A DNA stretch of 64,000 nt from Pegoplata infirma (taxonomy: Eukaryota; Arthropoda; Insecta; Diptera; Anthomyiidae). The notes under the pieces were generated by a model. It did not search any database and had not been told where the DNA came from. It was given only the letters and a program-made list of their open reading frames with translations. This document shows positions 2,150 to 48,834 of this stretch, in pieces. The DNA lies in assembly GCA_963921195.1 (NCBI GenBank), contig OY992536.1:94531007-94595006 (forward strand), in the 5' to 3' direction. Both the position numbers and the translations under genes were made by a program. Position 1 is the first letter of the stretch. Every line of letters begins with the position of its first letter.

Positions 2150-5100
2150 TAACTAGGCCCCACGTTGGGCGCCATTTTCATAAAGTTATGATTCTGAGAA
2201 AATTGTTGTAGAAGATGAGAATTTTCTTAAGCAAAAAGATATCAGAATCTGCAACATTTTTCTGATAGAAAAATCAAACTTAAAAATCTCTCATACGACC
2301 TACAAAATTTTTTTGTTAGTTCAAGGGTTAATAATTTTTCTCTATCATATTTTTTTTTTTTATATTTTAAAAAGTCATTATTATGGAAATGATTTGAGCA
2401 TCTATTGTACATACATATGAGTACATTTATTGGAAAACATTATCATTACCATAATCTTCTTCATCATCATTATTATTTTACAATATTATTAACAAATTTT
2501 CAAATATACTTTATTGTAGTAGGGAAATAAACACTTATTTCGGGCGTTTATAAAGTCAACTACAGTTACTTTGACAATTTAGCAGACATTTGTATGTAGT
2601 TGTTAAAAAAAAATTTTAACCAAAATGTTGAACTTCCGAGTTATGCTTCAGTATTTAGTCACAAAATCAATTAAATAAAGCTGGCCCTTCGTTGGGCGCC
2701 ATTTAAAAAAAAAAATCTCTAAGATGCTGAAATAAATTTTTTAAAATATTTATTAGATTTTTTTTGTAGCAAACAGGATCTTAGACATTTTTGCTAAATA
2801 AAAGTCTAGATTAAAATGTTTAGACAAATCCTAAGTCATAAATTAAATGGCGCCCAACACAGGACCAAAAAGTTAGATTTTGATTCTTTATTGTAAAGAA
2901 CAAGTTTCTGACAATTTTCGCAAAAAAATGCAGATCTAATTGTAAGAAATGTTTCCTAACGTTTTCTACACACAAAAAATTATTGGCTAAAAAATTTCAA
3001 TTAAATCTGTTGATCAACAAAATTTAAGTGAGTCAATTATTGTTTTGATCAACATTTTTGTTATTTTCTATAACTGTCGAATAACAAATTTTCAACATTC
3101 CAGATTTTTTTTCGCTTTAATTTTTTTTGATTAGATTAATTAAAAAATATACAAAATAATCGGGCTTTACTTTTTTATTGTTGGCAAAAAATAAAAATCA
3201 ATTAATTGATTGACTTTCGTTTTCAATTCTTTCTGTGTAATATATTTTTCCAGATTCTTGAATAATTATTCTGTGGCAAAAAGATCTCAGAATTTAAGAT
3301 ATTTTTCTATCGTAAACGTAAAGACCAATCTTCGGTTGGCTTCCAACTTGGGGCTTTGATTTTTATATGGATTATGTTTCATTATTCTGAGATATTTTTA
3401 CATCCAAGTATCAGTGACTTTCAATTTTAGATTCTGAAACAATTTTCTTTTAAAAAAACTTTAATTTCAGGTAACATTGGACTCTATAGAAAATATTTTT
3501 GATTCCCACAAAAATGTTTTAGAAAATTAATTTTTTTTCGAAAAAAAAGGTCTCAAAATTTATGACAAATTTTCTATAGAAAGTCTTGAAAAAATTATAA
3601 AAAAAAGTCTGATGTTATAAATAAATGGCGCCCAACTTGGGGCCTTGTGTCCAACAAATAAAATACCATCCTTTTAAATCATTTTTTCTCTTATGCGGAG
3701 AAATTTTTCTTTTTCCGTATACAAAAATCTAAGACTCTAGAATAGTTTTGAGACATTTTTTCTATGTTTCTTTCTCAGGTTATTAAACATTTTTACAATA
3801 GAAAAATTTTAACTTTCTGAGACAATTTTCCTTTGAAAAATCCACAAGTTCAGGTTGTTATGCCACACTTTGGGCGCTTTATATAAAAAATATTTGCGAT
3901 TCTCTAAAAAAAGTTTCACAAGATGAAAATTTTTCGTGAAAACAAGGTCTCCAAATCTGTATAAAAGTCTAGAAAAAATTATAGAAAAATCTATAAAAGG
4001 TTTTTTAAAATTATGGCGCCCAACTTGGGGCCTTGTTCACAATAAATAAAACAAAATAAATTTCCTACAGAAAAGTCGACAAAAAATTATAGAAAAATCT
4101 ATCAGAGTTTTTAAATTAATGGCGCCCAACTTGGGGCCTTAATGTAAATAAAATGGCATCTCTTTAAAATATGTTTTCTATTGAAAAGGTCTAAGATGAG
4201 ACAGGTGACACATTTTTCTATATCAAAGTGAAACATCTTCCTTTTAGAAAAATCTAAGACATAAGGACAGTTTGGGATCATATTTCTTATTGAAAAATTC
4301 TTTGTTTATGAAAATTTTTTTCTGTATAGAAGCCAAAGATTTTTCTATTGAGAAAATCTAAGGCCCTTACCACAAGAAAACAAAAAGTCTATTTTAACAA
4401 AAGTTTTATTTTAAATTTCAAATTTTCAATACATTTTTTGAAGTCGATTTTAAAAACAATTTGTATGGAAATAAAACTAAAAGCTGATTTTAAATGTATT
4501 TTATTTTTCTATGGTAAGGCTGTAAGATTGTGAGACATTTTAATTTTAGAAATATTCTCTGATTGTGACATATTCCTTTATAAACAATTTACAAAAGACC
4601 TTCTTTAGGAAAATATTTATGATCTAAAACAATTTATTTTTAAAAAACTTGCAAGCCTTGGTACCGAGGCCCCAAGTTGGGCGCCATTGTTAAATATCGT
4701 CTCCAATTTAAAAACAAAAAATTTCAGAGGTTGAAAATTTTTATATAAAAAACAAATCTCTTTTTAACAAATGGCGCCCTAATTAGGACCTCGGTCACAA
4801 TGCATTAAATCCTTTACAACATTTTTCCTAAGACAGTTCTGAAACATTTTTCCTATTGAAAAAATCTTTGTTTTTAAAACATTTTTTCCGTCAAATATGT
4901 ACAAAAATTGTCAGATTTTAAGTTAATGTTTTTATATAGAAATTCTTATATTGTGATGCATTTTTCTTATAGAAATATTCTCAAAACTCTGACACATTTT
5001 TTCTATAGAAACGACTTTTGAAAACACCTCATTTTTAATCTTTTATTTACCTTAATTTAAAAAAAATGCAAATCTAGGTTTCCGGACCCCAAAATGGGCG

Positions 5101-6960
5101 CTACTTTTAAAAAATTTCTTCGATTTTTTAAAAAAATTGCTTCGATTTTTAGAACAAAATTTTAGAAGTTGAAAACTTTTTTATAGAACATAAGCCTAAT
5201 AATCTAAGACGTTTTTTCTAAAGAATAGTTTATGAAAAAAGTAGAGAAAAACCTATATCAGGTTTCTTGTAAATGGAGCCCAAGTTGGGGCTTCGGTTCT
5301 GTTGTATTATATGTCTTCATTCTAAACCATTCTTGATATAGAAAACAAGTCTCAGAATCTAAGACAATTTCCCTAAAGAAAAATTTAAGAAAAAAGTAAA
5401 GAAAAATCTAAATCAGATTTTTATAAATGGCGCCCAACTTGGAGTTTCTGCACTGGTATATTTTTGGCCATCATTATAAACCTCTCTTGCTACAGAAAAA
5501 GTCCCAGATTCTTAAAAATATTTATCTTATAAAATTAAATAGATTCTGAGAAAATTTTCCCGTTAAAAACGTTAAAAAATTCTCCGATTTTTTAAACAAA
5601 ATCTTAGAAGTTACAATATTTTGTATAGAACACAAGCCTAATAATCTAAGATGTTTTTTCTAAAGAATAATTTATGAAAAAAGGAATGATAAATCTATGT
5701 GAGGTTTCTAATAAATGGCGACCGACTTGCGGCTTCGTTTCTGTTGTATTATATGTCTGCATTCTAAACCATTCTTGCTATAAAAAACAAGTCACAGAAT
5801 TTAAGACAATTTTCCTAAAAAAAAATTTAAGAAAAAAAGTAATGAAAAATCTAAGTCAGGTTTTTCAAAAATCGAGCGCAACTTGGGGCCTCGGTCCCGG
5901 TGTATTTTATGTCATCATTATAAACCCCTCTTACTACAGAAAAAGCCTCAGATTCTGAAAAATATAAATAATCAGATTCTGAGAAAGTTTTCCTATTCAA
6001 AAATATTTAAAAAAAATTGCAATTCTAGGTTCAGTGGCCCCAAGTTGGGAGCCACTTTTAATTTTTTTTTTTTCTATTTGAGAAATAAATTTCAGAAGTT
6101 AAAAATTTTTATATAGAAAACAAGTCTAAGACAGTTTTCCTAAAGAATAATTTAAGATAAAAGTGAAGAAAAATGTATTTCAGATTTCTAATAAATGGCG
6201 CCCACCTTTGGGCTTAGGTTCTGTTGTATTAAATGTCTTAATTCTAAACCATTCTTGCTATAGAAACCATTCTTGCCGTAGAAAACAAGTCTTTGAATCT
6301 AAGACAATTTTCCAAAAGAATAATTTAAGAAAAAAGTTAAAAAAAATTAAGTCAAGTTTTTAATAAATGGCTCCCAACTTAGGGCTACGGTTCCGGTGTA
6401 AATTATGTCATCATTATAAACCCGTCTTGCTACAGAAAAGGTCTCAGATTCTTTAAAATGTTTTCCTAATAAAAATCTGAGAAAGTTTTTCTATTCAAAA
6501 ATGTATGCAAAATTTGCAATTCTAGGTTCCGAGGCCCCAAGTTGGGCGCCACTTTTAAAAAATTTCCCTGATTTTGAGAAACAAATCTCAGAAGTTGGAA
6601 ATTTGTATAAAGAAAACAAGTCTCAGAATCTAATTTTCTTAAAGAATAATTTAAGAAAGAAAGTTGTAAAAAATCTGTGTTTGGTTTTTAATAAATGGCG
6701 CCCACCTTGGGGCTTTGGTCCTAGTGTGTTCTATGTCATCAATTTAAACTGTTTTTTCTATAGAAACTATTATTGCCGTAGAAAACAATTCTCATTTTAT
6801 TTCCTTAATAATTTAGGAAAAAAATAAACAAAATTTGTTTTTTGATAAATGGCGCCCAACTTGGGGCTGCGGTTCCATTGTATTTTATCATCATTCTTAA
6901 CCATTCTTGCCATAAAAAAAGGTTAAAATTCTTTAAAATATTTATATTTTCTATTCGAAA
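2150..6960. repeat. tRNA-Lys-motif satellite, array 1
   Basis: About twenty copies of the block TGGCGCCCAACTTGGGGC, or its reverse complement, recur through this interval: + orientation near 2848, 3626, 4014, 4121, 4771, 5274, 5428, 5713, 5872, 6195, 6367, 6694 and 6849, and the opposite orientation near 2157 (perfect GCCCCACGTTGGGCGCCA), 2684, 4669, 5084, 6027 and 6530. The block is one base off the 18-nt complement of the tRNA-Lys(CUU) 3' end. Between motifs lie diverged strings of TTTTCTATAGAAAA and AGTCTCAGAATCTAAGAC, the same words that build the short satellites at 28.8 and 10.6 kb. Open frames here (for example 5674-5958, 6501-6827) arise from the repeat. Confidence 0.85.
5084..6960. 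repeat. ~500-bp higher-order repeat in array 1
   Basis: Within array 1 the motifs fall in the order one reverse copy then two forward copies, repeated: 5084r/5274f/5428f, then 5713f/5872f with the reverse motif missing, then 6027r/6195f/6367f, then 6530r/6694f/6849f. The step between equivalent motifs of the last two units is about 482-503 bp. The second unit is about 60 bp shorter because the stretch with the reverse motif (expected near 5565) is deleted. The forward motifs are followed by phrases such as GTATTATATGTC and ATTCTAAACCATTCTTGC that are shared between units. Confidence 0.8.
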
Positions 6961-7077
6961 ATGTTTAAATTGTGATAAATTTTCCTTTTATTTGTGGTAA
7001 TTGCTGTAATTTAAATTGCTGATTTAAATTTCGAGCTATTTACTCACTTTTATGAGTAACTGTTTTTATATGAGGGG

Positions 7078-7310
7078 GTTAGAGCACAAGGGGTTCAAGT
7101 GCCTTATATTTGATAATGAGAAAAAAGAGGTTAAAGTTAAATTGCAATAAAAAATGTTAGATGCTATCTATAATATTATTTTTTAGTTAATAGAGATCCT
7201 GAGATATATTTAATCTAACAAGTTAAAAAAATACCGTCTTTTACACCCTTTTGCACCCAAAAATTGCATCTGAAGTAAGTAAGTCGCACTTATACCCCTT
7301 GTGCTCTAAC
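7078..7310. mobile_element. 233-bp inverted-repeat element, copy 1
   Basis: Begins GTTAGAGCACAAGGGGT and ends ACCCCTTGTGCTCTAAC, perfect 17-bp terminal inverted repeats that continue imperfectly inwards (AAGTGCC / GGCACTT). Size and structure fit a MITE, but the copies here sit inside a longer tandem block, so target duplications cannot be read. No coding capacity. Confidence 0.75.
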
Positions 7311-7329
7311 TTTTTTTATAAATTTCTAT

Positions 7330-7562
7330 TTAGAGCACAAGGGGTTCAAGTGCCTTATTTTTAATAATGAGAAAAGAGGGGTTTAAGTAAAATTGCAATA
7401 AAAAATGTTAGGTGGTATCTAGTATATTATTTTTAAGGTAATAGAGCTCCTGAGATATATTTTTATCTAACAAGTTAAAAAAATACCGTGTTTTACAATC
7501 TTTTGCACCCAAAAATTGCATCTGAAGTAAGTAAGTGGCACTTATACCCCTTGTGCTCTAAC
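7330..7562. mobile_element. 233-bp inverted-repeat element, copy 2
   Basis: Same element as at 7078: TTAGAGCACAAGGGGTTC at the left, CTTATACCCCTTGTGCTCTAA at the right, and an interior that aligns throughout with copies 1 and 3, including the phrase ATACCGTGTTTTACAATC. It is followed by the acidic-tail coding remnant, as copy 3 is. Confidence 0.75.
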
Positions 7563-7643
7563 TTTTTTTTATAAATTTGTAAATTCGTAAAAGGAAAACC
7601 ACATTTTATTAAGAAAATGTGTAATGGTTATTTGTTTAATTTT

Positions 7644-7751
7644 TTAGTCGTCATAATCAGACTCCATGACATCATTGGGCTCATCTTCATCTTCATTAGG
7701 GCATCTCGTCAAATCTAAACTTTCGAATTTCGTATCATAATACCTGCCGAA
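7644..7751 (-). pseudogene. remnant of a C-terminal exon with acidic tail, copy 1
   Basis: Read on the minus strand and ending at the TAA at 7644-7646, this gives 35 codons without a stop, containing FGRYYDTKFESLD, then NEDEDEP and the last residues DVMESDYDD. Codon-like behaviour is visible by comparison with the copy at 8244-8362: the length difference in the acidic run is exactly 6 bp (in frame), and one Glu differs only by GAG versus GAA. Upstream the frame decays. I do not recognise the protein; a transposase or a captured host-gene C-terminus are both possible. It is too short to be functional alone. Confidence 0.5.
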
Positions 7752-7909
7752 AATTATTTAACCAAATCTGGCTCAAAAATTAGGAATTTTTGAGTACTTT
7801 ATGGGAAATTTTTTTTAAAAATTCCACTTTTGGTCCACAGATGCTGATTTTCAAACATAAAAATTATTTTTAACCAAATTGGTCTTAAAAGTTAAATTTT
7901 AATAATTGC

Positions 7910-8142
7910 TTGGAGCACAAGGGGTTTAAGTGCCTTAAATTTAATAATGGGAAAAAAGAGGTTATAGTTAAATTGCAGTAAAAAATGTTAGATGATATCT
8001 AGAATATTATTTTTTAGTTAATTGAGATCCTGAGATATATTTTAATCTAACAAGTTAAAAAAATACCATATTTCACAAATACAAGCACCCAAAAATTGCC
8101 TCTGAAGTATGTAAGTGGCACTTATACCCCTTGTGCTCTAAC
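7910..8142. mobile_element. 233-bp inverted-repeat element, copy 3
   Basis: Starts TTGGAGCACAAGGGGTTTAA and ends CTTATACCCCTTGTGCTCTAA. The left terminus has TTGG where copies 1 and 2 have TTAG, so the outermost bases of the two ends no longer pair. The interior aligns to copies 1 and 2. Confidence 0.75.
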
Positions 8143-8243
8143 TTTTTTTATAAATTTCTAAATTATGAAAAGAATGTTAGTTATTTGTAAAAGGAAAACC
8201 ACATTTTATTACAAAAGTCTTTAATGGTTCTTTGTTTAATTTT

Positions 8244-8362
8244 TTAGTCGTCATAATCAGATTCCATGACATCATCGGGCTCATCTTCATTAGGGCGTCC
8301 CTTGAAATCTAAACTTTCGAATTTCGTGCCGTGATACCTGCCGAACGATGGACATGGAGTAG
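8244..8362 (-). pseudogene. remnant of a C-terminal exon with acidic tail, copy 2
   Basis: Longer copy of the remnant at 7644. On the minus strand it reads ATPCPSFGRYHGTKFESLD, then NEDEP, and ends DVMESDYDD at the TAA 8244-8246. Immediately upstream in transcript sense lies TTTTCCCACAATTAG (AG complementary to 8363-8364), which looks like a 3' splice site, so this may be the beginning of a terminal exon. The frame is closed by a stop just before that AG. Product unknown; the acidic, Asp/Glu-rich end is the only clear property. Confidence 0.5.
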
Positions 8363-8379
8363 CTAATTGTGGGAAAATT

Positions 8380-9030
8380 TATGAAAAATTTTTGCAAGGT
8401 CATTTTTAGTCTGCAACCAGCGGTCAAAGTTTAAAAAATTACGTTTTTGGACCAAAATTTATATCTGAAATATTTAACCAAATCTGGGTCAAAAATAAGG
8501 AACTTTTGCGCGTTTTATGGGAAAAATATTTAAAAAATTTCAAAATTGCGATTTTGGTCCACAGATGCTGATTTATAAACATAAAAAATATTTTTAACCA
8601 AATTTGTCTTAAAAGTCGAAAAATGTTGAGTATTTTATGTGAAAAATTTTAAAAATAAACCCACGATTTTGGTCCAAACAAGCTGATTAGCATCTGTGTA
8701 TCAAAATCTTTGATCAGCATTTTTGAACGAAAATCGTGTTTTTTATATTTTTTTAATATTTTTTAGATAACTTGCTTTACATTTTCCAACTTTTGGGACC
8801 AATTTGGATAAAAAAAATAATATTTATGTTAAAAATCAGCATCTGTGGACCAATTTTTTTTTTTTTTGGGATTTTTTTTTTTATTTTTCCTATTATGTAC
8901 GCTAAAATTCCTAATTTTTGAGCCCAATTTGGTCAAAAAATTCGGACATGAATTTTGGTCGGAAATCGCCATTTTTTCACACATTAACCGCTGGTTACAG
9001 ACTGAAGATGCTCTTGCAAAATTTGATTAC
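8380..9030. repeat. large imperfect palindrome (~300-bp arms)
   Basis: The sequence 8385-8690 reappears inverted at about 8700-9025. Landmarks: TTTTGCAAGG ... CTGCAACCAGCGGT at 8390-8425 against ACCGCTGGTTACAG ... CTTGCAAAAT at 8986-9022; GGTCCACAGATGCTGATTT at 8560 against AAATCAGCATCTGTGGACC at 8833-8851; and CCACGATTTTGG at 8661 against GAAAATCGTG at 8729. Arms have diverged, so this is an old foldback structure or head-to-head duplication. Open frames over it are not genes. Confidence 0.7.
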
Positions 9031-9096
9031 TATTACTACAAGAACTTCTCGGAATTCAACCACTTGTCCAAGCGAAAAACTAAATTTTAATAATTG

Positions 9097-9145
9097 CTTG
9101 GAGCACAAGGGGTTTAAGTGCTCATATACCCCTTGTGCTCCAAGC
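9097..9145. mobile_element. 49-bp perfect-ended remnant of the 233-bp element
   Basis: GCTTGGAGCACAAGGGGT and ACCCCTTGTGCTCCAAGC face each other across a few bases. This is the two ends of the element at 7078-8142 with the interior deleted. Single-ended remnants follow at 9221 (CTCTTGTGCTCTGAAC) and 9298 (AACCCCTTGTGCTTTGAG). Confidence 0.7.
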
Positions 9146-9329
9146 AAAACAGGTATTTTAGTAACAAGAGCTAGAAATGGTCGCCATATCTCGCTAACGG
9201 ATAAGAATTTCACATTCACCTCTTGTGCTCTGAACTTCTGTGAACTTCACCTACTAATTCCATATGTTAACTCAATTTTTTTAAAAAAGTCACTTGAACC
9301 CCTTGTGCTTTGAGCCCCTCATATATCTT

Positions 9330-10565
9330 GTATGAGATTTTAAAAGATTTTATGATTGTGTATTTTTGTATCTATCTAAAGCCTTATGGTATGATGATTG
9401 AGCGTATGTGTTGAAAAAAATCAATAATTTTTAATGCTTAAATGTGCGGAAAATTTTTATGTCAAAGTTTTTTTTTTTTTTTTGAAAAACGATGGAAAAT
9501 GTTTTTCTTTTTTAGGTTAATCTTGGAATCTTAACCTTTTGTACATAATAAAAATATGTATATTTTTAAATTTTTTATATTGTAAATAAAACAATAAATT
9601 TTTTATACATTACTAATTTTTTCCATTTACTTTCTTCTCTTTTTAGGTAAGTTTTCAAATTGGGTATTGTTGAAAAAACAAAGATTTTGGTAAAAGGTAT
9701 TTAAAATTTTCCAAATATTTTACAAAAGTTTTAAAATAAAATAAAAATGCAGAAGTTATTTATTGAAGAACCTGAAAAAATTTAATAACATTTTGAGTCG
9801 ATTTTCAAAAACGTTTTTTATTTAAAAAAAAAATTTTAAATTTAAAATTTTTTTTTTTCCTTTCTTTCAATTACTTATTTATTTGCTTATAAATTCCATT
9901 TAATTTAATTAATTTTTGTTTCACAATTTACATTTCCAAAAACCCTTTAAGTGCCTAAGCATGATGATATTTTTTTAACCCTCTTTTAAGTTGTAAACTA
10001 TAATTGATTAAATTTACTACTCAAATGTTTAAAAATACATTAATATGTATTTGATTAAGGGTTGAGTGGAAATAGAAAAAATATCAATTACACTGTGGAT
10101 TTCTATTCATATCTAATCATGTCAGTTGTTTTTTTTTTCTATTTTTAAGAGGGTACTCATCACTTTGACAACTCTAAACATCTCGTGTCTTACACGGTTG
10201 TCAAGTTTAATGTTATCTTTTTTATTTCGAAATTATTTACCATGTAAACCTAAACCAAACATATACATTAACATACACGTGCCATATTTAAGGAAACATT
10301 TACACGTAAATATTTTTTTTTTAGTATTAAGTGGAAAATTTGACCCTAAGTAAACAACCCTTTTTTTGAAACATATAGGGGGGAGAAATGCATTTGCAAA
10401 AAAACCCTGTTATTTCGACAGATTGAGGGAAATATACACAAAACAATCAGTATTTACGCACGTTTGCACACGCATCACACATGTTGCTTACACAAAAATT
10501 TTTACGAGTATTTTTTTTATAATTTTTTTCAGAATAATAAAAATATTAAGGGGGTTCATATAATT
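9330..10565. other. AT-rich DNA, no gene recognised apart from the splice-like site
   Basis: Contains the ratchet-type splice site at 9611-9652 and a weaker pyrimidine-AG/GTTAAT site ending near 9515. Otherwise long A/T runs. Open frames at 10126-10563 have no family resemblance that I can see. Confidence 0.5.
9611..9652 (+). promoter_or_regulatory. candidate recursive (ratchet) splice site 1
   Basis: CTAAT branch-point-like sequence (9613-9617), an uninterrupted pyrimidine-rich stretch (TTTCTTCTCTTTTT, 9631-9644), AG at 9645-9646, and immediately GTAAGT at 9647-9652. Juxtaposition of a strong 3' splice site with a consensus 5' splice site is the hallmark of zero-length exons that subdivide very long introns in flies. 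No coding sequence continues downstream, which fits a ratchet point rather than an ordinary exon. A second such site lies at 53296-53335 on the same strand. Confidence 0.6.
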
Positions 10566-10571
10566 CATCAA

Positions 10572-11086
10572 CAGACTGATGACATTTTCTTATAGAAAAG
10601 ACATCATTATACTGATGACAATTTTCTATAGAAAAGTCTTCAGAACATTGATGACATTTTTCTGTAGAAAAGTCATCCATATACTGATGACATTTTCTTA
10701 TAGAAATTTTCACACTGATGCCATTTTAGAAAAGTATTCAGTAAACTTATGACATTTTCCTATAGAACAGTCATCAGTTCACTGATGACATTCTCCTATA
10801 GAAAAGTCATTAGCAAACTAATGACATTTTCCTATAGAAAAGTCATCAGTTTACTGTTGACATTTTTCGATAATAAAATTCATCAGTACACTGGTGACAT
10901 TTTCCTGTAAAAACGTCATAAGTACACTGATACATTATCGTAAAAGTATTCTGATAACTCTTCTATAACAAAATGTCATCAGTGTTCTGATGACATTTTC
11001 TTATAAAAAAGATATATAGAAAAGTCATCAGTACACTGATGATGTTGTGTTAAAAAGAAAATGTCTTCAGAATACTGATGACATTT
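10572..11086. repeat. ~35-bp bipalindromic satellite, GTCATCAG type
   Basis: Tandem units of roughly 35-37 bp that alternate the palindrome TTTTCTATAGAAAA with GTCATCAGTACACTGATGAC. About fourteen diverged units. The flanking AT-rich DNA changes abruptly at both sides. A remnant of the same units is found at 11480-11595. The first palindrome is shared with the satellites at 28.8, 41.3 and 49.8 kb. Confidence 0.85.
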
Positions 11087-11387: not shown

Positions 11388-11600
11388 AAATAAATGGCGC
11401 CCAACTTGGGGCTTTGGTCCTTTTGTATTATATGTCATCAAGTTGAACTGTTTTCTATAGAAACTGTTCTTGCTATAGAACACATGAGTAAACTGATGAC
11501 ATGTTCCTATAGAAAAATAATGAGTTGACTGTTGACATTTTTCTATTAAAAAGTCAAAAAGTCGTCCATCAGCTCTAATGACATTTTTCTATAGGGTCAA
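11388..11600. repeat. junction unit: tRNA-Lys motif joined to GTCATCAG satellite
   Basis: An array-1-type monomer (TGGCGCCCAACTTGGGGCTT near 11395, then GTATTATATGTCATCAAG and TTTTCTATAGAAA) runs directly into units of the GTCATCAG satellite (ACTGATGACATGTTCCTATAG). This is the physical link between the tRNA-Lys-motif satellites and the short bipalindromic satellites. Confidence 0.75.
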
Positions 11601-11659
11601 TTTATAGTTGCATATATTGAAAAAGTACTTTTTAAAATAGTACTAAATAGCCCCATGTC

Positions 11660-12610
11660 TAAAATAGCCCCATGTTGGGCGCCAAAAATTTAGCAAATTT
11701 ATTTTGTAATTTAAGTGTTCATTTATTTTTGAATTCTATTATAAAAAAGTAAAAAAAAATAAATATTTTGTTTAAACTAAAAGACAAAAGTTTTTCGCCC
11801 CACGTTGGGCGCCAATAAAAAAGTTTTTGGAAGTAAAAGTTACAATTAAAAGTTATCAGTAACCTGATTACATTTTCCTATAAAAAAGTCAAAAGACTTT
11901 TTTCGATAAGGGCCCCACGTTGGGCGCCAATACGAAAATGTTTTTCATAGTGAAAGTTATAAGCATTTGTTGCCTATATTTTGTAACTACAATGAAAATG
12001 GAATTTAAAAACAAATTGCTAAAAACTTAATGTAATTTTAAAATCACTTATCGAAATTGTGAATGTTACTTTTGATAAATTCTATAGAAATATTTTGTTG
12101 CTTGCACTTTTAACGCGGAAATGACAATTTTGCTCATTTATTATTGGTTTTTAGTTAATTTTTAAAGTTTTTCAATAAAAACATTTTTTATTTATATAAA
12201 TATTACTAAATAATCAAGCTCGAGGTCTTTCTTCTTTATTTCATACCTCCAATATTTCGTTATTCATTGAATAACATCATCAGGGACAGTACAAAAGTTC
12301 TTATAAGCTAGTGCGTTGCAGTTGCTGCTATTGTCGTCATAATAGTACTCACCCTTTTGTCTGTTGATACTGCATGCTCTCCGTTGTTGTAAATAAGTTT
12401 AGTTGTTATTCGACCTTTTTCTTAATATAAATAATAGTAAATAATCAAGCTCGAGGTCTTTATTATATTTTAAAATCTTCTTTATTTCATTCCTCTAATA
12501 TTTCGTTATTTATTGAATAACATCAGGGACAGCACAAAGTTAAGTTTATTTACTTTAAACTTAAGAAAACACAATTCTTTTGCTTAAGCCCCACGTTGGG
12601 CGCCATAGAG
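11660..12610. repeat. scattered tRNA-Lys motifs, reverse orientation
   Basis: Three perfect copies of GCCCCACGTTGGGCGCCA occur at 11797-11814, 11912-11929 and 12588-12605, and one copy with a single mismatch near 11668. All four face the opposite way from most motifs in arrays 2 and 3, and their flanks differ from each other. No LTR-like direct repeats surround them. Confidence 0.8.
12210..12540 (+). mobile_element. two left arms of foldback family X
   Basis: Two stretches (12217-12365 and 12400-12537) match the left arm of the foldback at 51.83 kb: AATAATAGTAAATAATCAAG, CTCGAGGTCTTT, CCTCCAATATTTCGTTATTC, CATCAGGGACAG, and in the first also CTTATAAGCTAGTGCGTTGC. No right arms follow, so both are truncated or internally rearranged. 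Confidence 0.75.
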
Positions 12611-14777: not shown

Positions 14778-17325
14778 ATTTGTGTACAAAATATGTATGC
14801 AGTAGCTGTTCAGTAAAAAAAAAAAAGAAACAGATAATGCACAGTAGTTGGAAATGGCAAACAAATTGCTTGTAGTTTATGGCGCCCAACGTGGGGCCTT
14901 AATCGAAAAGTCTGTGTCATTGAGTTTAATCAGAACACTAATATGGGTTTTCTCTTAAGTAACACATGGCAAGAGTCTGGGAGTTTTAACTGTTTTTGTT
15001 TTTGACTTTTTTCTCTTAAGTATCAAATGGCTCCCAACGTAGGGCCACAATCGAAAGAGTTGTTTTTTAAAAATTATATCACAAAACTAATATGTATGCA
15101 GTAGCTGTTCAGCAAAAAAAAAAACAGCTAATGCACAGTATTTCGAAATAGCAAACATGGCGCCCAACGTGGGGCCACTGTCGCAAGAGCTGTATCATTG
15201 TGTTTCATTAAAAATTTCTTTGGGTTTTTTCTCAAGTAACCGATGGCACGAGTCATTGAGTTTTAACACCAAGTTTTTTGACTTTTCTTCTCTAAAGTAT
15301 CAAATGGCTCCCAACGTGGGGCTATAATCGAAAGTGTTGTTTTTTAAGAGTTTTATCACAAAAATAATTTGCTTTGTTTAAGTAACACAAAATGGGACAC
15401 GGATGAAATGGTTCTGTCGTTGAATTATATCACAAAATTAATGACGCCGAACATATGTTGCTCAATCGAAAGCGTAGCATCTTTGAGTTTTATCACACAT
15501 AAAATTAGTTATTTTTTCTTAAGTGGAGTAACAATCAAAAGAGTTGTGTTTTTGAGTTTTATCTTAAGATTAAAATGTTTTTTTCTTGAGTGTATTACTC
15601 AATGGCGCCCAACGTGGGGCTTAATTCGAAAGTGTGTCTTTGAGAGTTATCACAAAAATAGTTTGATTTTTTCTATTAAGTAAAACATAGCGCTCAATGT
15701 AAAACACAATCGGAAGAGTTGTATTTACAGTTTTATAAACATTAATTATGCTATTTTTGTTAAGTGACACATGGCGCTCAATAAAGGGTAAATCGAAATA
15801 GGGTTTTCTTTGAGTTTTTCACAAAGAAATAGTTGTGTTTGATTTTAATCAAAAAAGAAATACTTGTTTTTCTTAAATAACTCATGGCGCCCAACTGAGG
15901 ACACAATCGAAGGAGTTGTGTTGTTGAGTTTTATCACAAAATAAATGACGTAGGGCCACAATCAAAAGCGTAGGGTCTTTGAATAAAATTAGTTATTTTC
16001 TCTGAAGTTATACATGGCGCCCAATATTGGTTGCAGTCAAAAAAGTTGTGTTTTTGACACATTGCACCCAATGTTGAGCTTTACTCGAAAGTGTTGTGTC
16101 TTTGAGAGTTATCACAAAAATAGTTTGATTTTTTCTCTTAAGTACAACATAGCGCCCTATGTGGAACACAATCCGAAGAGTTGTGTTTACAGTGTTATAA
16201 ACATTTATTTTGCTATTTTTGTTAAGTGGCACATGGCGCTTAATATAGGGCCACAATCGAAATAGGGTGTTTTTTGAGTTTTATCACAAAGAGTTGTGTT
16301 TTGAGTTTTATCAAAAAAGAAATATTTTATTTTCTTAAATAACACATGGCGCCCAACTTAGGACACAATCTTTGGAGTTGTGTCGTTGAGTTATATAACA
16401 AAATAAATGATGTAGGGCCACAATCAAAAGCGTAGCGTCTTCGAATAAAATTAGTTAGTTTCTCTGAAGTTACACATGGCGCCCAAAGTCAGTTAACAGT
16501 CAAAAAGTTGTGTTTTCGCTTTTTATCGTAAAATTAAATTGTTTTTTTCTTAGCGCCCTAAGCGGAACTTGACTATAACAGTTGTTTCTTTGAGATTTAT
16601 AAAAAAAATATTTGATTTTTTTTTCTTAAATAAAACATAGCGCCCAATGTGGGTCAAAAATGTTTTTGAGTTTTATAAACATTTATTTTGTTATTTCTGT
16701 TAAGTAATACATGGCGCTCAATATAGGTTTACAATCGTCAAAGTTGTGTCTTTGAGTTTTATCACAAAGATAGAGTTGTGTTTTAAGTTTTATTAAAAAA
16801 GAAATAGTTTTTTTTTTCTTAAATAACACTTGGCGCCCAACTTAGGACACAATCGAAGGAGTTGTGTCGTTGAGTTTTATTGCAAAATATATGACGCAGG
16901 GCCCTAACCAAAAGCGTAGCGCCTTTGAGTTTTATCACAAATAAAATAGTTATTTTGTCTTTAGTTACACATGGCGCCCAATGTGGGGTAACAGTCAAAA
17001 AATTTGTTCTTTCGCTTTTTATCGTAAAATTAAATTGTTTTTTTCGTAAGTAACACATGGCATCCTACGCGGTGCTTGACTCGGCACAGTTGTTTCTTTG
17101 AGATTTATCACAAAAATATTTGATTTTTTTTTTCTTAAATAAAGCAGCGCCCAATGTGGGGCAAAAATGTTTTTTGAGTTTTATAAACATTTATTTTGTT
17201 ATTTCTTTTAAGTGACACATCGCGCTCAATATAGGGTCACCTTTAAATTAGGTTTTTTTTTTGAGTTTTATTACAAATTTTTCTCCTGTCAATACTTGGC
17301 GCCCAACATGGGGCCGCAATTGAAA
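14778..17325. repeat. tRNA-Lys-motif satellite, array 2
   Basis: About two dozen monomers of roughly 75-150 bp, each with a version of TGGCGCCCAACGTGGGGC in + orientation (perfect at 14880-14897, 15158-15175 and 15603-15620; one mismatch near 15305 and 17298; progressively decayed elsewhere). The motif is preceded by CTTAAGTAACACA and followed by CACAATCGAAAGAGTTGTG and TTTGAGTTTTATCACAAAAA. These flanks are unrelated to those of arrays 1 and 3. A ~75-bp segment (ATGTATGCAGTAGCTGTTCAG onward) precedes both the 14880 and 15158 motifs, which indicates local duplication. Open frames are products of the repeat. Confidence 0.85.
15771..17295. repeat. ~470-bp higher-order repeat in array 2
   Basis: Variant motifs recur in the same order. 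GCGCTCAATATAGG-type copies lie at about 15771, 16231, 16711 and 17219; ACTTAGGACACAATCGAAGG-type at 15884, 16347 and 16829; CATGGCGCCCAAWGT-type followed by CAGTCAAAAA at 16011, 16480 and 16969; and ATAGCGCCCAATGTGG-type at 15688, 16149, 16639 and 17144. Steps are roughly 460-505 bp, so the array grew by amplifying a multi-monomer unit after the monomers had diverged. Confidence 0.8.
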
Positions 17326-41273: not shown

Positions 41274-43611
41274 TGATAAAGTTTTTTCTATAGAAAACCT
41301 TATCGGATAAAATTTTTTTCCATAGAAAATTTTATCGGATAAAGTTTTTTCTAAAGAAAACTTTATCGGATAAAGTTTTTCTAAAGAAAACTTTATCGGA
41401 TAATGTTTTTTCTATAGAAAACTTTATCGGATAATTTTTTTTATAGAAAACTTGATCGAATAAAATTTTTTTCTATTGAAAACTTTATCGGATAAAGTTT
41501 TTTCTATAGAAAACTTTATCGGATAAAGTTTTTTCTATTAAAAAATTTATCGGATTAAGTTTTTTCTATAGAAAACTTTATCGGATAAAGTTTTTCCCAT
41601 AGAAAATTTTATCGATAAAGTATTTTTATAGAAAAACTTTATCGATAAAGTTTTTCTATAGAAAATTTGATCGATAAAGTTTTTTTTCTATAGAGAACTT
41701 TATCGGATAAAGTTTTTGCTATAAAAAACTTTATCGGATAAAGTTTTTTCTATAGAAAACTTTATCGGATAAAGTTTTTTCTATAGAAAACTTTATCGGA
41801 TAAAGTTTTTTCTATAGAAAACTTTATCGGATAAAGTTTTTTTCTATAGAAAACATTATCGGATAAAGTTACTTCTATAGAAAACTTTTTCGTATAAAGT
41901 TATTTCTATAGAAAACTTTATCGGATAAAGTTATTTCTATAGAAAACTTTATCGGATAAAGTTATTTCTACAGAAAACTTTAATGGATGAAGTTGTTTCT
42001 ATAAACTAATTTATCGGATAAAATGTTTTTTATAGAAAACTTTATCGGATAAAATATTTCTATAGAAAACTTTATCGGATAAAGTTTTTTCTATGGAAAA
42101 CTTTATCGAATAAAGTTTTTTCTATAGAAAACTTTGTCGGATAAAGTTTTTTCTATAGAAAACTTTACTGGATTTAGTTTTTTCTGTAGAAAACTTTATC
42201 GGATAAAGTTTTTTCTATAGAAAACTTTGTTGGATAAAGTTTTTTCTGTAGAAAACTTTATCGGATAAAGTTTTTTCTATACTAAACATCATTAAATAAA
42301 GTTTTTTCAATAGAAAAATTTATCGGATAAAGTTTTTTTTCTATAGAAAACTTTATCGGATAATTTTTTTTATAGAAAACTTGATCGAATAAAATTTTTT
42401 CTATTGAAAACTTTATCGGATAAAGTTTTTTCTATAGAAAACTTTATCGGATAAAGTTTTTTCTATAAAAAAATTTATCGGATTAAGTTTTTTCTATAGA
42501 AAACTTTATCGGATAAAGTTTTTCCCATAGAAAATTTTATCGATAAAGTATTTTTATAGAAAAACTTTATCGATAAAGTTTTTCTATAGAAAATTTGATC
42601 GATAAAGTTTTTTTCTATAGAAAACTTTATCGGATAAAGTTTTTTCTACAAAAAACTTTATCGGATAAAGTTTTTTCTATAGAAAACTTTATCGGATAAA
42701 GTTTTTTCTATAGAAAACTTTATCGGATAAAGTTTTTTTCTATAGAAAACCTTATCGGATAAAGTTACTTCTATAGAAAACTTTTTCGTATAAAGTTATT
42801 TCTATAGAAAACTTTATCGGATAAAGTTATTTCTACAGAAAACTTTAATGGATGAAGTTGTTTCTATAAACTAATTTATCGGATAAAATGTTTTTTATAG
42901 AAAACTTTATCGGATAAAATATTTCCATAGAAAACATTATCGGATAAAGTTTTTTCTATGGAAAACTTTATCGGATAAAGTTTTTTTAAAGAAAACTTTA
43001 TCGGATAAAGTTTTTTCTATAGAAAACTTTATCGGATAAAGTTTTTTCTATAGAAAACTTCATTGGATAAAGTTTTTTCTATGGAAAACTTTATCGGATA
43101 AAGTTTTTTAATAGAAAACTTTATCGGATAAAGTTTTTTCTACAGAAAACATTGTCGGTTAAAGTTTTTTTAATAGAAAACTTTATCGGATAAAGTTTTT
43201 TCTATAGAAAACTTTATCGGATAAAGTTTTTTTTTATAGAAATCATTATCGGATAAAGTTTTTTCTATTTATTTTATCGGATAAATTTTTCTCCATAGAA
43301 AACTTTATCGAAAAAAGTTTTTTCTATTAAAAACTTTATCGGATAAAGTTTTTTCTATAGAAAACTTTATCGGATAAAGTTTTTTCTATTGGAAAGTTTA
43401 TCGTATAAACTTTTTTCTATAGAAAACTTTATCGGATAAAGTTTTTTCTACAGAAAACTTATGGGATAAAGTTTTTTCTACAGAAAACTTTATCGGATAA
43501 AGTTTTTTTCTACAGAAAACTTTATCGGATAAAGTTTTTTTCTACAGAAAACTTTATCGGATAAAGTTTTTTCAATAGAAAACTTTATCGGATAAAGTTT
43601 TTTTCATAGAA
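41274..43611. repeat. 31-bp bipalindromic satellite, CTTTATC type
   Basis: Tandem array with consensus GGATAAAGTTTTTTCTATAG followed by AAAACTTTATC. Length divided by period suggests about 75 units. Each unit joins the palindrome TTTTCTATAGAAAA to CTTTATCGGATAAAG, itself palindromic except for the central base pair. It begins and ends abruptly in unrelated AT-rich DNA. Unit length is nearly constant, and most variants are single substitutions or changes in T-run length. Confidence 0.95.
41420..42960. repeat. ~0.9-kb higher-order duplication inside the 31-bp satellite
   Basis: A series of rare variants appears twice in the same order: CTTGATCGAATAAAAT at 41451 and 42380, TTCCCATAGAAAATTTTATC at about 41586 and 42524, and TAATGGATGAAGTTGTTTC at 41981 and 42846. 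The offset falls from about 929 to 865 bp, equal to a loss of about two 31-bp units in the second copy. Confidence 0.85.
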
Positions 43612-43614
43612 AAT

Positions 43615-44930
43615 TCTTATTAATCCAATAATTCCTCCATTTTTGTGAAATATAATCGCATCGAAATCTCTTTATCTAAAAATTTTATTTTTTAATCACG
43701 AAATTTAATTATTCCAATATTAAGAATTTTTCAAAATATTCAATTCTATAACAACTTTTCAATCATCTACATATTTGAGTATCATTCAAGTTAAATCGTA
43801 CAGCAAAAAAACACTATATACGGCCATTGCCTCTTAAAATATATGTAAATTTTAAACATGTTCTCGTCATCAAATAAGGAACTTCTTATATATACTACAA
43901 TATATTCATCCAGCCAGTTGATGAAAAGCCAACAAGCAGCATTCCTCGATAGTCCCAAACAAGAAAATGCAAAAAAAAAACGTACTTTAAATATTCATAG
44001 GAAAAATCCATTTCCCATGAACGTATGAATGTTTTTGAAGTTGGTCACTATTCGGTTTTTTTTTACTCTTTTTTTTGCTGGTATTAACATTGTTGAGTAT
44101 GTGTTGAGTTTTAAAGCAATTCACATACATTCTCATAACGAATAGAGTGGAATGGAAGAAACAAGAAACAAATTTTTGAATGTAACAAGAATAATTTAAT
44201 TTAAAAATTTACTTTATTTCATTTGTAGGTACTTTTTAAAAAGATTACTAAAATTAGGTGTTTTTTGAGTAATTTTAAGCAAAAATTGTTTAAAAAGAAA
44301 ATATTTATATTTTTAGCGGTTTTAATAAAAGCAATAACTCAGGGAGTAGGTGTTGATCTTTTTTTTTATTTCTGGATCCTAAACAAAAATATATTTTTCC
44401 ACATATTTTGTTTAAAATTACACTTTTAATTCTATATCCACCAAAACCTTTAAAAAAAATTAAAAAAAAACATGTCTTCCTTATTTTTTCATTTCTCGCC
44501 TTCTCTAATACTCACCCATTCCAAATACATTGAACAGGAGTATGTGTACATGTGTTAGTTTGTAGACACATACAAAAACACATACTTATGGCACACTTGA
44601 AAATATCATTTGCAGTGCGTGCTTGAAAATATTTTAAAGGGTTTAAACCATTCTCGTATTTCTTTTTTGTACGTTTTTTTTTTGTATTTTGGTGAATTCT
44701 TTTTTTTCGCCATACTACGGGGGATTTTATTTTTCATTTGTGATATGTTGTTTGTCTGTGTGTGAAATTTTAAATGTTTATTTGTATTTTAAACGTATCG
44801 CCCTGTTTTCACTCACTCCTCATAATTCACATAAGTTAACCCTTTTAAGAGTACTCTAATTATTACATATCAAAACAGCAAAAATTGTAAAATTATTTCA
44901 ATTAGCTTTCTGACTTCAAAAAAATAACAG
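43615..44930. other. AT-rich DNA, no gene recognised
   Basis: No repeats, motifs or plausible exons seen. Ends where the third tRNA-Lys-motif array begins. Confidence 0.5.
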
Positions 44931-45984
44931 TTCAGCGGGTTTTTTTTTTTTGGCGCCCAACGTGGGGCAACAGTCGGATAATGAAGCATTTACTTATTGT
45001 AACGTTAATTCTTATTTACAAAATTTGGGTTAATAACTACACAAGCAAAAATTGATGACTGTTTTAAAAAAAGCGTTCCAAAAGTACTATAACATAAAAG
45101 AAATCACTCTGAAAATTCCCTTTTCAAAAAGCGTTTGAGATATTTGATTTACAAAATATATGATTGTTCCAAAACGTAAAAGTTTGTAAAGCATTTTGAA
45201 AGTCCTCATAAAGCAAAATTTATGATTGTTGGAAAAATTAAATGGTTTCAAATCTATACTTTCAATTTGCAAATTTGTGTAAAATTCTTTCAATTAGTTT
45301 TCTGACTCAAAAAAAGGAACTTTGATCGATTTTAAGGTTTCGCCTGTAACACCTAGAATCCAAAAAGTGTTTTATTTAATCCTGCATAAAAAGACATAAC
45401 CTTCAAAACAAAGTTGTTTTATTGGCGCCCAACGTGGGGCCAGGGTTTAAAATGAAGAAACTTATGCTTGACTTATTTTACTGTTAATTTTTATTTAAAT
45501 ATGTTTTAAGTTCTCTGTTTTTCTTCAATTTTGTATGAAATAATACCATTATGTATCTCGATTACTTTAACAATTTCAAATGTTTCAATGGCTGATTTTT
45601 GTATCTAGAATATCGTGTAAAATTATTTCAATTAGCTTTATGACTCCAAATGAGGAACTTTATCGATCCTGAGGTTTCGTCTGAAAAACATCGTGTCCAA
45701 AAAGTGTCTTTTTTTATTAAAACACAATCATCCTAAAAGGTTGATTTTTTTTTGGCGCCCAACGTAGGGCCAACGTGTAAATTTTTTTCAATAAGGTTTT
45801 TGACTTCAAGGAATAAATCTTGAGATTTCGACGTCAAGTTCAAGCCCGAATGGAAGAATACAACCATAGACACAATGTTGTTTTATTGGCGTCCAACGTG
45901 GGACGGGAGGAAAAAAACTGAGTAGCTTCTATTTACTCATTTTATTACCTACCAATTAATTTTCCATTAAATTAGAAGAAAAAC

Positions 45985-46801
45985 ATGTAAGAAAGTTATA
46001 GTCGGTCAAGACCGACCATATAATACCCTACACTAGTGTTTTCCGAAAAATGGGTCCCAAGTCCAAACATGGACCGATTGGATCTATCTTTTGTTAGATC
46101 TTTAATTAGTGTAGAAAACACACACAGACAAAATTTTAGTGGAATTGGCTTATTTTTGTTTCCAATAGACCGATTTAACTTAATATCGGTCGAAATTTTT
46201 ATAAAGGGGACCAAGTCCAAAAATGATCTGAATATATTCAGGTAAAAGTAAGTTACCAAAGCACACCTTTAGCACCTAAAACGAAAATTTGAATCAAATA
46301 TTTCCAACTTTCATGAATTTTGAGAGATTTATGTGAATATCGGGAGGGTGGTTTGTATGGGGACTAAAAGAGGAACTGGTCCGATTCCTTTTAAATTGGA
46401 AATGATAATTTATGAATACAAAAAACGATTACCTACCAAATTTTGAAAGGGTACCTGTTATAATACGCTAATAAGAGTCACTTGAGTCAAATTAAAGGGG
46501 ACGTTTATATGGGGCTAGGTCTAAACATTTACCGATTTTTCCCAATTTCAATAGGCTTCGTCCTTGGGGCAAAAGAAGATTAAGTTTCAAATTTCAGCCA
46601 AATCGGTTGATAATTGCGACGTGTTTCGTGTTTAACACGTTTACATGGACTGACAGACAGACAGACGGACGGACGGACAAAAAGTTATTCTGAGTTGATC
46701 GGTATACTTAAAGGTGGGTCTAGGACCAATATTTCGAGTAGTTACAAACATCAGCACAAACTCATTATACCCTGTACCACAGAGTGGTGTAGGGTATAAA
46801 A
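45985..46801 (-). mobile_element. Helitron/mini-me-like element, subfamily 2, copy 1
   Basis: On the minus strand it starts TATACCCTACACCACTCTGT, carries GTCC/GTCT repeats (complement at 46653-46678), and ends with the perfect hairpin GTCGGTCTTGACCGAC followed by TATAACTTTCTTACATGTT. The same termini occur at 53856-54655 and 60563-61370. The hairpin just inside the 3' end and lack of terminal inverted repeats resemble Helitron-type ends. Open frames on both strands belong to the repeat. Confidence 0.8.
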
Positions 46802-46985
46802 ATTTAGAGTTTAAACACACAGAAGATAAGAAGATGCAGAAAATTTGGTGATTAATGAAAGTGAACCGCGGAGTAGAGCAAATTATATTTTAAAATTATT
46901 TCAATTAGCTTTTTGGTTCCAAAGAATTACCCTTATCGATCTCTTTTGTCGGTAAAACATGGTGTCCAAAAAGTGCATTATTTTA

Positions 46986-47175
46986 TTTTTTTATTTTATT
47001 TTATTAAGAATTACCATATAATTACAAATCATATACTAATTTTACCTAACCGAGAACTGGTTACAATGACCTTCGTCTCGTTGTAGCGAAACAGACCAAG
47101 GCCTCTGGTGGGAATCGAACCCACGACCCCCAGACTCATAGGCTAGCACGCTACCAACTAGCCTACTGGGGCGCC
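46986..47175 (-). mobile_element. tRNA-derived SINE with 12-bp target duplication
   Basis: On the minus strand: a tRNA-like head beginning near GCCCCAGTAGGCTAGTTGG, with an A-box region (complement of 47149-47163) and a perfect B box GGTTCGATTCC (complement of 47110-47120) inside a 5-bp T stem GTGGG/CCCAC. A short body and a (TAAAA)n tail at 46986-47012 follow. TGCATTATTTTA flanks it at 46974-46985 and 47176-47187. The acceptor-stem halves pair at five of seven positions. This is the signature of LINE-mobilised insertion; the partner LINE is not in the window. Confidence 0.9.
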
Positions 47176-48834
47176 TGCATTATTTTAGTAAAGCACAGTC
47201 TTTACAAATGGTTAATTTTTTTGGCGCCCAACGTGTAAATCGTTTTCAATAAGGTTTCTGAATTCAAGGTGTTGAGACCATCGACACAAGGTTGTTTTAT
47301 TGGCGCCCAATGTGGGGGATGAGGGGAAAATCGAAGCTGCTTCCTCGATTTACTTATTTTATTATTAACAAATTAATTTTTCCATTAAATTCACTCTTTT
47401 AATGTTGTATTAATGCTTTGAATGTCTTTACAAATGATTTTTTTGGCGCCTAACGTGGGGTGAACGTGTAGATATTTTTCAATAAGGTTTCTGACTTCAT
47501 GGAATAAATTTTGATATATATTGAGACCATCGACACAAAGTTGTTTTTTTGGCGCACAATGTGGGGTTGAGGGGAAAATCGAAGCTGCTTCCTCGATTAA
47601 CTTATCTTATTATTTACAAATTAATTTTTTCATTTAATTCACTCTTTTTTAATATTGTATTAATGCTTTGAATGTCTTTACAAATGGTTAATTTTTTTGG
47701 CGCCTAGCTTCGGGCGAAAGTGTAAATATTTTTCAATAAGGTTTCTGACTCGTAGCTGCTTCCGCGATTTACTTATTTTATTTTTTACAATTAATTTTAT
47801 TAAATTCACTCTTTTAATTTTGTATTAATGCTTTGAATGTTTAGGTTTTGGTATTTCTAAATTTCTAAATATTCGAATTACAATTTAAACAAAGAAACTT
47901 CTTAAATTATTTCAATAAGCTTTCTGACTTCAAGAAATAAAATTAAATCAATCTTTGGATATATACAGGATTCCTGCAGTAAATACTCGTAAAAAAATTA
48001 ACCAACAAGTGTTTAAATTAAAATTGGCGCCCAACATGGGGTCAGATGGAAAGATGCTCGTATTTATTTACAATTTAAATGTCAATTGTTATTAATTAAT
48101 TATATTTTTTAATTAATTAATCAACCAAGTTTTTTTATTTAAAACCAAATGGCGCCCAACACGGGGCCAGAGGAAGAAAATGAAACAGCTCAATTTTTAT
48201 CACATATTTTATTGTTAATTTTCATTAATAAATTTTGTGTTAAAGTTGCTCATTTAATTTACGTTAATATTAATGAAATCCAGCCTTTAGATATCTCAAC
48301 TACCTAAAAAAAAATTTTAATGAAGATTTTTTAATTTTTGGTATTGAACAATTTATTTTCTATACAAACAAGAAAAAATGCTAGACTATTTCAATTAATT
48401 TCTTGAAACCCACAAAAGGTACTGAAATAAATTTCTTACAATCATTTAGACTGAATGGGAAAGGTGCAACCTTTGGAACAATGTTGTTTTATTGGTGCCC
48501 ATCGTGGGGTAAATAAAAAAAATTCAGCTTTTACTTAATTTATGGAAAATTGTTTTTAATTCATTTCGCATTTTACTCAATGTTTTGATTTAGACTGAAT
48601 GGGAAAGGTGCAACCTTTGGAACGATGTTGTTTTATTGGCGCCCATTGTGGGACAAATCAAAAAATTCAGCTTTTACTTAATTTGTGGAAAATTGATTTT
48701 AATTCATTTCGCATTTTACTCAATGTTTTGATTTTGTTTAAAATTTTGCCTTAATGTCTTTTAAATACTTTTAGATTTTTAAAATTTCAGTTTTTGGCGC
48801 CCTATGAGGGGCATACAAAGTTTGAAAACATTTC

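Follow-up and report, generated by a model that had tools for sequence, protein, structure and literature searches.

A short primer-binding sequence for tRNA-Lys(CUU) shared by otherwise unrelated satellite arrays of Pegoplata infirma, and its possible recognition as DNA

The data presented here suggest that something in the cell recognises 18 bases that are common to thousands of mostly unrelated repeat units in the genome of Pegoplata infirma. These bases, the published primer-binding site (PBS) for tRNA-Lys1,2 (PMC1084362), were analysed both genome-wide and in a single 64-kb stretch of DNA (64,000 nucleotides, hereafter the window). Our tentative reading, to which we give a little less than an even chance, is that the copies lie in old PBS-derived satellite arrays, in which the 18-mer has been kept via recognition of double-stranded DNA by a host factor.

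With up to three mismatches allowed, the window contains 44 copies of the tRNA-Lys(CUU) PBS 18-mer, as against none in each of 100 dinucleotide shuffles, and an iterated weight matrix yielded 64 copies, 61 of which score at least 13 bits. An initial annotation of this DNA had arrived at about 60 copies by hand, a count that the weight matrix bears out, and all nine copies that it reported as perfect are exact matches. A weaker copy at 1014 lies upstream of 2157, where that annotation began the series. When base 12 is ignored, 18 of the 64 window copies are intact, compared with 6.2 expected if the mismatches were spread evenly. The perfect copies and the arrays are as follows.

2157..2174, minus strand: perfect 18-mer, exact match
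11797..11814, minus strand: perfect 18-mer, exact match
11912..11929, minus strand: perfect 18-mer, exact match
12588..12605, minus strand: perfect 18-mer, exact match
14880..14897, plus strand: perfect 18-mer, exact match
15158..15175, plus strand: perfect 18-mer, exact match
15603..15620, plus strand: perfect 18-mer, exact match
44951..44968, plus strand: perfect 18-mer, exact match
45423..45440, plus strand: perfect 18-mer, exact match
1014..6867, mixed strands (7 copies minus): array A, 22 copies, base-12 T form predominant
11395..12605, 11395 plus; 11667, 11797, 11912 and 12588 minus: minus-strand group together with one array A copy, 3 of the 4 minus copies perfect
14880..17314, all plus strand: array B, 23 copies in a 462-507 bp higher-order unit of several monomers
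44951..48812, all plus strand: array C, 14 copies with at least 3 flank types

Between 5274 and 6867, array A is built of a higher-order unit of about 440-500 bp in the order + + -, with spacings of mostly 154-172 bp; in array B, the 18-mers are mostly decayed in the higher-order part and better preserved at 14880-15620. When the window copies were grouped by their flanks, without the motif, the number of groups was 25, 21 or 17 according to the threshold chosen. The flanks can be aligned within each family. From one main family to another (six in all), identity is 0.46 for the flanks, the same as for random 40-mers (0.46), and 0.73 for the motif. The earlier description of the flanks as unrelated therefore holds at the level of between-family identity, although in profile comparison some families remain weakly similar to one another, such as C2 and C3 in their upstream flanks (z 9.3, with rows that are not independent). 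When used in genome-wide searches, the array A flank at 6640-6920 had five of its six matches inside the window and one 45-bp match outside, and the array B flank at 14820-15000 had three of its seven inside and four short matches outside; the DNA similarity search ignores very common words, so that these and other genome match counts are lower bounds. Searches with flank profiles found the motif at 10/10 upstream and 12/18 downstream matches for array A (the remaining six being partial, profile positions 28-59), and at 17/19 upstream and 22/27 downstream matches for array B, where it has been lost from five of the 27 flank-defined monomers.

Across the one genome searched (1.384 Gb, 813 contigs), a search with two mismatches, of the kind that the initial annotation had proposed, returned 10,037 copies of the 18-mer (5,254 forward and 4,783 reverse) and none of the same pattern written backwards. 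As yardsticks, the same tolerance gave 716 copies of the tRNA-Lys(UUU) PBS (two backwards) and 194 of the tRNA-Gln PBS (five backwards). Scans of viral and prokaryote sequences for the 18-mer gave 1 and 50 stretches, where simple arithmetic leads one to expect about 30 in 257 Gb, and we read these matches as chance. For a view of the surroundings of the copies we took 60 loci of 3-7 kb around perfect copies from 100 matches listed, all of them located within the first 81 Mb on contig 1, a sample that is tilted to perfect copies on one contig. These loci hold 217 copies at up to four mismatches (base 12 free), 98 of them intact, and at 23 of the loci there is just one copy. Full flanks are available for 211 copies, which fall into 109 flank clusters; 105 of these clusters are confined to one sampled locus; since two window flanks are also nearly unique, the units of the arrays seem not to disperse.

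In the window, the information in the weight matrix is limited to bases 1-18, with 1.2 and 1.6 bits at the two ends, a maximum of 2.9 in the interior, a minimum of 0.7 at base 12 and 0.3 in the adjoining outside bases. Taking one copy from each of the 109 clusters in the 60 sampled loci again gave a conserved block of 18 bases, with 0.3 and 0.5 bits beside it. Conservation extending well beyond the 18 bases, which the initial annotation had regarded as the mark of an ordinary repeat, was thus seen neither in the window nor in the sampled clusters. Base 12 is free and its neighbours are less variable: it is G in 32, T in 22 and A in 10 of the window copies, and G in 94, A in 30, T in 21 and C in 6 of 151 non-seed genome copies, and the T form alone has 864 exact copies in the genome. 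The information content amounts to 30.7 bits in the window and 34.0 bits in the non-seed genome copies, far above the 18.1 bits that suffice for 10,037 sites. Such an excess would be unusual in a binding site, and it keeps models based on copying alive. No second shared box containing G/C was found in the flanks, where the most enriched 6-mer was TTAATT, downstream (9/23 representatives against 2.0 expected).

The 18-mer most likely originated as a retroelement PBS for tRNA-Lys(CUU), since the identity spans exactly 18 bases, the CCA has been copied, LTR elements of this genome share the site, and some single copies are the ordinary PBS of LTR elements. The earlier argument for a PBS rather than a tRNA gene as the source is upheld: the TGG end, a copied CCA, is kept in the motif, none of the eight distinct tRNA-Lys(CTT) genes seen at tRNA loci (all of the base-12 G form) is followed by CCA, and a comparison with the LTR elements of the species, which had also been proposed, found elements that use exactly this tRNA-Lys site. 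No tRNA gene was found at the window copies. A tRNA gene or tRNA-derived SINE was also rejected as the source because the next 14 bases have an identity of 0.237 to the tRNA arm, as against 0.223 after shuffling, and because the TGG end is present. Rfam gave no match at the gathering score.

At locus L061, the 137 bases preceding the PBS are found again on the same strand 13.8 kb downstream, and other contigs have similar pairs; L126 contains a Retrotrans_gag frame, and 0.8-1 kb downstream of the PBS a RING-H2 frame is present at L065, L130, L131 and L132. An LTR-end signature (YACA, 0-8 bases, then the PBS) marks 9/23 single-copy loci, against a background of 7.2%. Features of LTR retrotransposons (two LTRs, a PBS just after the first, gag) were in this way found for single copies, never all three at one locus; in a positive control with the tRNA-Lys(UUU) PBS, repeats resembling LTRs, shared flanks that contain long frames, or gag were found in 4/6 loci (L135, L136, L138 and L139). 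The existence of such elements, with the gag frame of L126 and the LTR pair of L061, speaks for an explanation by neutral remains, in which many LTR families primed by tRNA-Lys(CUU) seeded different arrays and the shared 18-mer decays like all else. So do the signatures at single-copy loci and in the window, where 12/64 copies carry one, namely 11/23 in array B and the copy at 12588. In array B, CA precedes 20/23 copies. The copies of this array are mutually related, with no second LTR or gene found, and given the 11 YACA signatures the array may descend from an LTR-PBS junction. Against neutral remains stand arrays A and C, which show no sign of such descent (the signature is present in 0/22 and 0/14 copies, and CA within 5 nt upstream in 3/22 and 2/14, with a background of 27%), and arrays elsewhere, where an LTR end occurs at about the background rate (9/111 copies at up to one mismatch and 3/49 clusters; 7.2%).

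The initial annotation had noted an absence of LTRs and retroelement genes nearby. For genes this agrees with our scans of window frames, since neither the 32 of 39 listed frames that were scanned (1-18,000 and 44,000-49,500) nor five frames elsewhere had a Pfam match above the cut-off. Protein searches with two frames found no relatives at E 0.001. For LTRs it applies to arrays A and C, which have no LTR end, and has to be qualified for array B, where the bases directly upstream of the motif look LTR-like. Full LTR elements at each cluster, which that annotation had named as the alternative to a motif of its own standing, are likewise missing from the results: no LTR element was found at the window clusters.

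The 3' region of tRNA-Lys(CTT) has 15 matches in the genome, five at tRNA genes identified by ARAGORN and ten elsewhere. All ten of the latter begin with TGG and nine extend past base 18, the exact match being 66 bases long at L089, 48 at L093/L094, which are an inverted pair at one place, and 24-25 at six; L086 has 17 tRNA-matching bases, after which the sequence is degenerate. The best interpretation is that tRNA primers were copied into the genome here. One arm, on the side of the TGG, is common to L093, L062, L063, L068 and L124, and three of these loci (L062, L093 and L124) form palindromes with the PBS in the middle. Searching with the arm of L093 gave at least 56 matches (40 of 349 first-look candidates having been scored), several of them inverted pairs that overlap at the PBS.

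Copying of this kind could also have spread the motif, if array transcripts or LTR-derived RNAs were reverse-transcribed from tRNA-Lys, so that only units with a working PBS spread and the PBS was rewritten each time. This selfish process would account for tRNA complement, CCA included, in DNA at the PBS (66 bases at L089, 48 at L093/L094), for a dispersed palindromic family with the PBS at its centre, and for the edge of conservation at base 18, where copying of a tRNA primer normally stops. It sits poorly with the confinement of 105/109 flank clusters to one sampled locus and with two window flanks that are nearly unique genome-wide, and rewriting from a tRNA whose genes (8/8) have the other form would tend to erase the base-12 T, of which 864 exact copies exist. 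We therefore consider it distinctly unlikely. A general derivation of the arrays from the palindromic family was rejected, the arm profile matching only three flank stretches (L128, L073 and L121; 0 in shuffled and 0 in random sequence), as were palindromic flanks as a general feature, found at 4/212 copies and 7/217 control places.

As for the history of the arrays, clusters with unrelated flanks within a locus have the same orientation in 93/107 pairs from 29 loci, where shuffling gave a mean of 52.8 and never as high a value in 5000 trials; for neighbouring copies of different clusters the figure is 62/93. The spacings between copies in the sample are concentrated, by eye, near 150 and 325 bp. 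Because of this shared orientation, which counts against neutral remains, the clusters look like diverged monomers of common tandem arrays. Array A, with its mixed orientation, is an exception. Other candidate histories were tried and rejected. The motif does not behave as a recombination junction in the window, since one-sided flank homology is 0.38 at the motif, compared with 0.50-0.75 at offsets of at least 60 bp, and only a few pairs (16 and 26) share one flank side only. Selection for a hairpin has no clear compensatory pattern to support it, the central pair being T-A instead of C-G in 5/64 copies. Nor were clean empty sites for an 18-bp insertion found in the window or elsewhere: the array B monomer at 15481-15563 is exactly 18 bases short, but has differences next to the gap; 3432-3530, in which the motif is missing, aligns at 72% to copy 3862 on both of its flanks; and outside the window there are 80 motif-less spanning matches (53 distinct places), of whose best 25, which we inspected, the strongest keep motif fragments or miss extra bases and the weaker ones are minisatellite or of low quality.

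An indication that the motif itself is held comes from comparing related monomers. In 275 pairs from 21 loci (pairs that are not independent, with copies found by the motif at up to four mismatches, which lowers measured motif divergence), divergence at G/C sites is 0.076 in the motif and 0.350 in the flanks, 4.6 times less in the motif; GC-rich control windows, which could be taken for 188 of the 275 pairs, give 0.232. The motif diverges less than the flanks in 21/21 loci. As flank identity falls from 0.9+ through 0.8-0.9 and 0.7-0.8 to 0.5-0.7, flank divergence climbs from 0.087 through 0.218 and 0.358 to 0.535, while motif divergence goes from 0.021 through 0.057 and 0.091 to 0.094, a plateau near 0.09 that neutral remains would not be expected to produce. 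A search by one flank only located 180 monomers at 30 loci, of which 48 have an intact motif, 42 have one mismatch and 20 two (110 at 0-2), and a further 10 have 3-4, 17 have 5-9 and 43 have 10-13 mismatches, the median for random places being 11. Such monomers thus mostly carry the motif either near-intact or lost, and seldom half-decayed. The best flank-spanning matches without a motif retain partial remains of it, so that loss looks like deletion.

The window gives a weaker contrast than the sampled loci. Over its 109 alignable pairs, total identity is 0.761 in the motif and 0.762 in the flanks, and G/C-site divergence is 0.182 in the motif and 0.362 in the flanks, about two times less. The pattern of tandem monomers with one box much more conserved than the spacers is accordingly clear in the sampled loci and fainter here. 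In the few recent duplicates that families C2 and C3 contain, identity is lower in the motif than over the 18 bases upstream of it, and the finding that changes in close duplicates are at least as frequent in the motif as in the flanks favours neutral remains, an explanation that we nonetheless hold to be rather unlikely. The initial annotation had left a choice between a piece of retroelement leader amplified several times and a motif that is itself maintained; since change within arrays is smaller in the 18-mer than in its flanks, the balance of the data is on the side of the second, and the first is less favoured.

A maintained motif might be read as RNA or as DNA. For RNA, array transcripts would be preserved as complements of tRNA-Lys or of its 18-nt 3' fragments, or would yield piRNAs matching the PBS of every tRNA-Lys-primed element. 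The length of 18 bases, equal to that of a PBS, would suit such pairing, as would the uniform orientation of most sampled loci that hold several clusters and the at least 15 contiguous paired bases that PIWI slicing is described as requiring (PMC10338343). Pairing, however, would favour the wobble-compatible change C>T, and this is no commoner per site than G>A: outside base 12, the sample has 7.0 C>T and 7.3 G>A changes per site, and the window has 19 C>T events at 6 C sites and 26 G>A at 8 G sites. Moreover, with T at base 12 the contiguous pairing is cut to stretches of 11 and 6, and yet the genome has 864 exact copies of this form. The suggestion that the motif is maintained by pairing with tRNA or 3' tRNA fragments is not borne out, given that base 12 is free though 8/8 tRNA genes have one form and that there is no preference for wobble-compatible changes. 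The data thus speak against pairing with tRNA or small RNA, which we judge very unlikely. Together, the free base 12 and the equal per-site rates of C>T and G>A point to recognition of DNA rather than to pairing of RNA or to rewriting from the tRNA.

In the reading that we prefer, locus-specific old satellites would descend from sequences that carried the tRNA-Lys(CUU) PBS of LTR retroelements. Their spacers drift freely, and a large proportion of the monomers keep the 18-mer free of point mutations, as seen in the sampled loci and, less strongly, in the window. The most likely reason would be a putative host DNA-binding factor that recognises the 18-mer as double-stranded DNA, for example a multi-zinc-finger repressor that targets the PBS of retroelements. 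The arrays would then form dense binding platforms, plausibly for heterochromatin, like the CENP-B box in alpha satellite. In primates, the short CENP-B box of alpha satellite is held by a DNA-binding protein and occurs in a subset of monomers, as the box does here. Matched against the nine essential CENP-B bases, the 18-mer agrees at 6/9, which 7.8% of shuffled 18-mers reach (P = 0.078).

Short boxes common to unrelated satellites are already known. Meloidogyne satellites are described as sharing a 17-bp CENP-B-box-like Box 1 (PMC3694981), and the arrays resemble them in that one short box is kept (the satellites there being otherwise 32-64% identical), in their higher-order monomers, and possibly in degenerate boxes within some of these (PMC3694981). 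They differ in that Box 1 resembles the CENP-B box and is described as marking the points at which monomers switch (PMC3694981), whereas the box here equals the tRNA-Lys PBS and switches, as assessed in the window, are not enriched at it. TRIM elements, reported to carry a PBS beside a terminal repeat and to form tandem arrays (PMC6934838), also combine tandem repeats with a PBS. Unlike TRIMs, arrays A and C have no LTR end, and the window copies have no excess of PPT, a PPT-like tract lying within 300 bp of 3/64 (background 7%); a TRIM origin was rejected. In mammals, KRAB zinc-finger silencing targets the PBS (PMC10602909, PMC7472051), the vertebrate zinc-finger proteins ZFP809, ZFP961 and ZNF417/ZNF587 being named as targeting PBS sequences (PMC10602909). 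There the PBS is recognised at the level of DNA (PMC10602909, PMC7472051), as we propose by analogy for the arrays, which lie outside that system, described for higher vertebrates (PMC10602909).

Among the open-licence literature, covered mostly at the level of titles, we found no satellite box equal to a tRNA PBS. A bolder version of our reading, which we regard as rather doubtful, is that thousands of PBS boxes in diverged satellites are bound by a host factor, so that the most constrained sequence of a retroelement would have become a genome-wide docking site, serving either as a permanent guard against every element primed by tRNA-Lys or as a chromosomal counterpart of the CENP-B box. If the constraint is real, the arrays would offer a testable case in which, beyond the KRAB system of vertebrates, an invariant sequence of retroelements has come to be maintained as an element of the chromosome, and for which the roughly 10,000 copies, with their free and fixed positions mapped, are ready material.

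Within the plus-strand array C (44951-48812), one copy of a 0.8-kb dispersed repeat sits between copies of the array, which therefore probably predates the insertion of that repeat in its midst. The three copies of the repeat in the window are 80-89% alike. Array C also holds a SINE-like insertion headed by a tRNA, in which the part resembling tRNA-His was placed at 47100-47172 by ARAGORN. Read by eye, the insertion has a tail rich in A and is flanked by a 12-bp duplication (TGCATTATTTTA).

Repeats in the window
10575-10936, palindromic minisatellite
28763-30024, palindromic minisatellite
41275-43613, palindromic minisatellite
49815-50090, palindromic minisatellite
45979-46802, 0.8-kb dispersed repeat
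53852-54664, 0.8-kb dispersed repeat
60561-61380, 0.8-kb dispersed repeat
46974-47187, minus strand, tRNA-headed SINE-like insertion within array C

The palindromic minisatellites have periods of 31-36 bp, with halves resembling CTATAGAAA and TCTCAGAATCTGAGA, and the spacers of array A (1014-6867, with a further copy at 11395) are similar to one of them. At both edges of the 2.3-kb stretch at 12605-14880, copies of the 18-mer primer-binding site for tRNA-Lys(CUU) point outward and have outer flanks that look alike by eye, an arrangement resembling what the inversion or splitting of an array at this place would leave.

Elsewhere in the genome, tRNA-Lys primer-binding sites at four loci (L065, L130, L131 and L132, the last two 96.8% alike across 2.9 kb) are followed 0.8-1 kb downstream by open frames for RING-H2 fingers. 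A perfect 18-mer at L076 is followed, after 263 bp, by the start of a C2H2 zinc-finger frame with at least six fingers, a proximity that may be due to chance. Locus L138 resembles a small non-autonomous LTR element: two 1018-bp direct repeats (99.8% alike) are separated by about 540 bp, and a tRNA-Lys(UUU)-type site lies about 44 bp past the first.

The tRNA-Lys(CUU) site also forms the centre of a dispersed palindromic repeat family, found at L062, L124, L093 and other places in the genome (at least 56 matches, with 40 of 349 candidates scored), many members of which are inverted pairs overlapping at the site. At L089, L093/L094 and L086, the complement of tRNA-Lys, including the copied CCA, lies beside either a palindromic arm or a sequence that resembles an LTR end; the complement is exact over 66 bases at L089 and 48 at L093/L094. 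These complements are probably traces of a tRNA primer copied into DNA.
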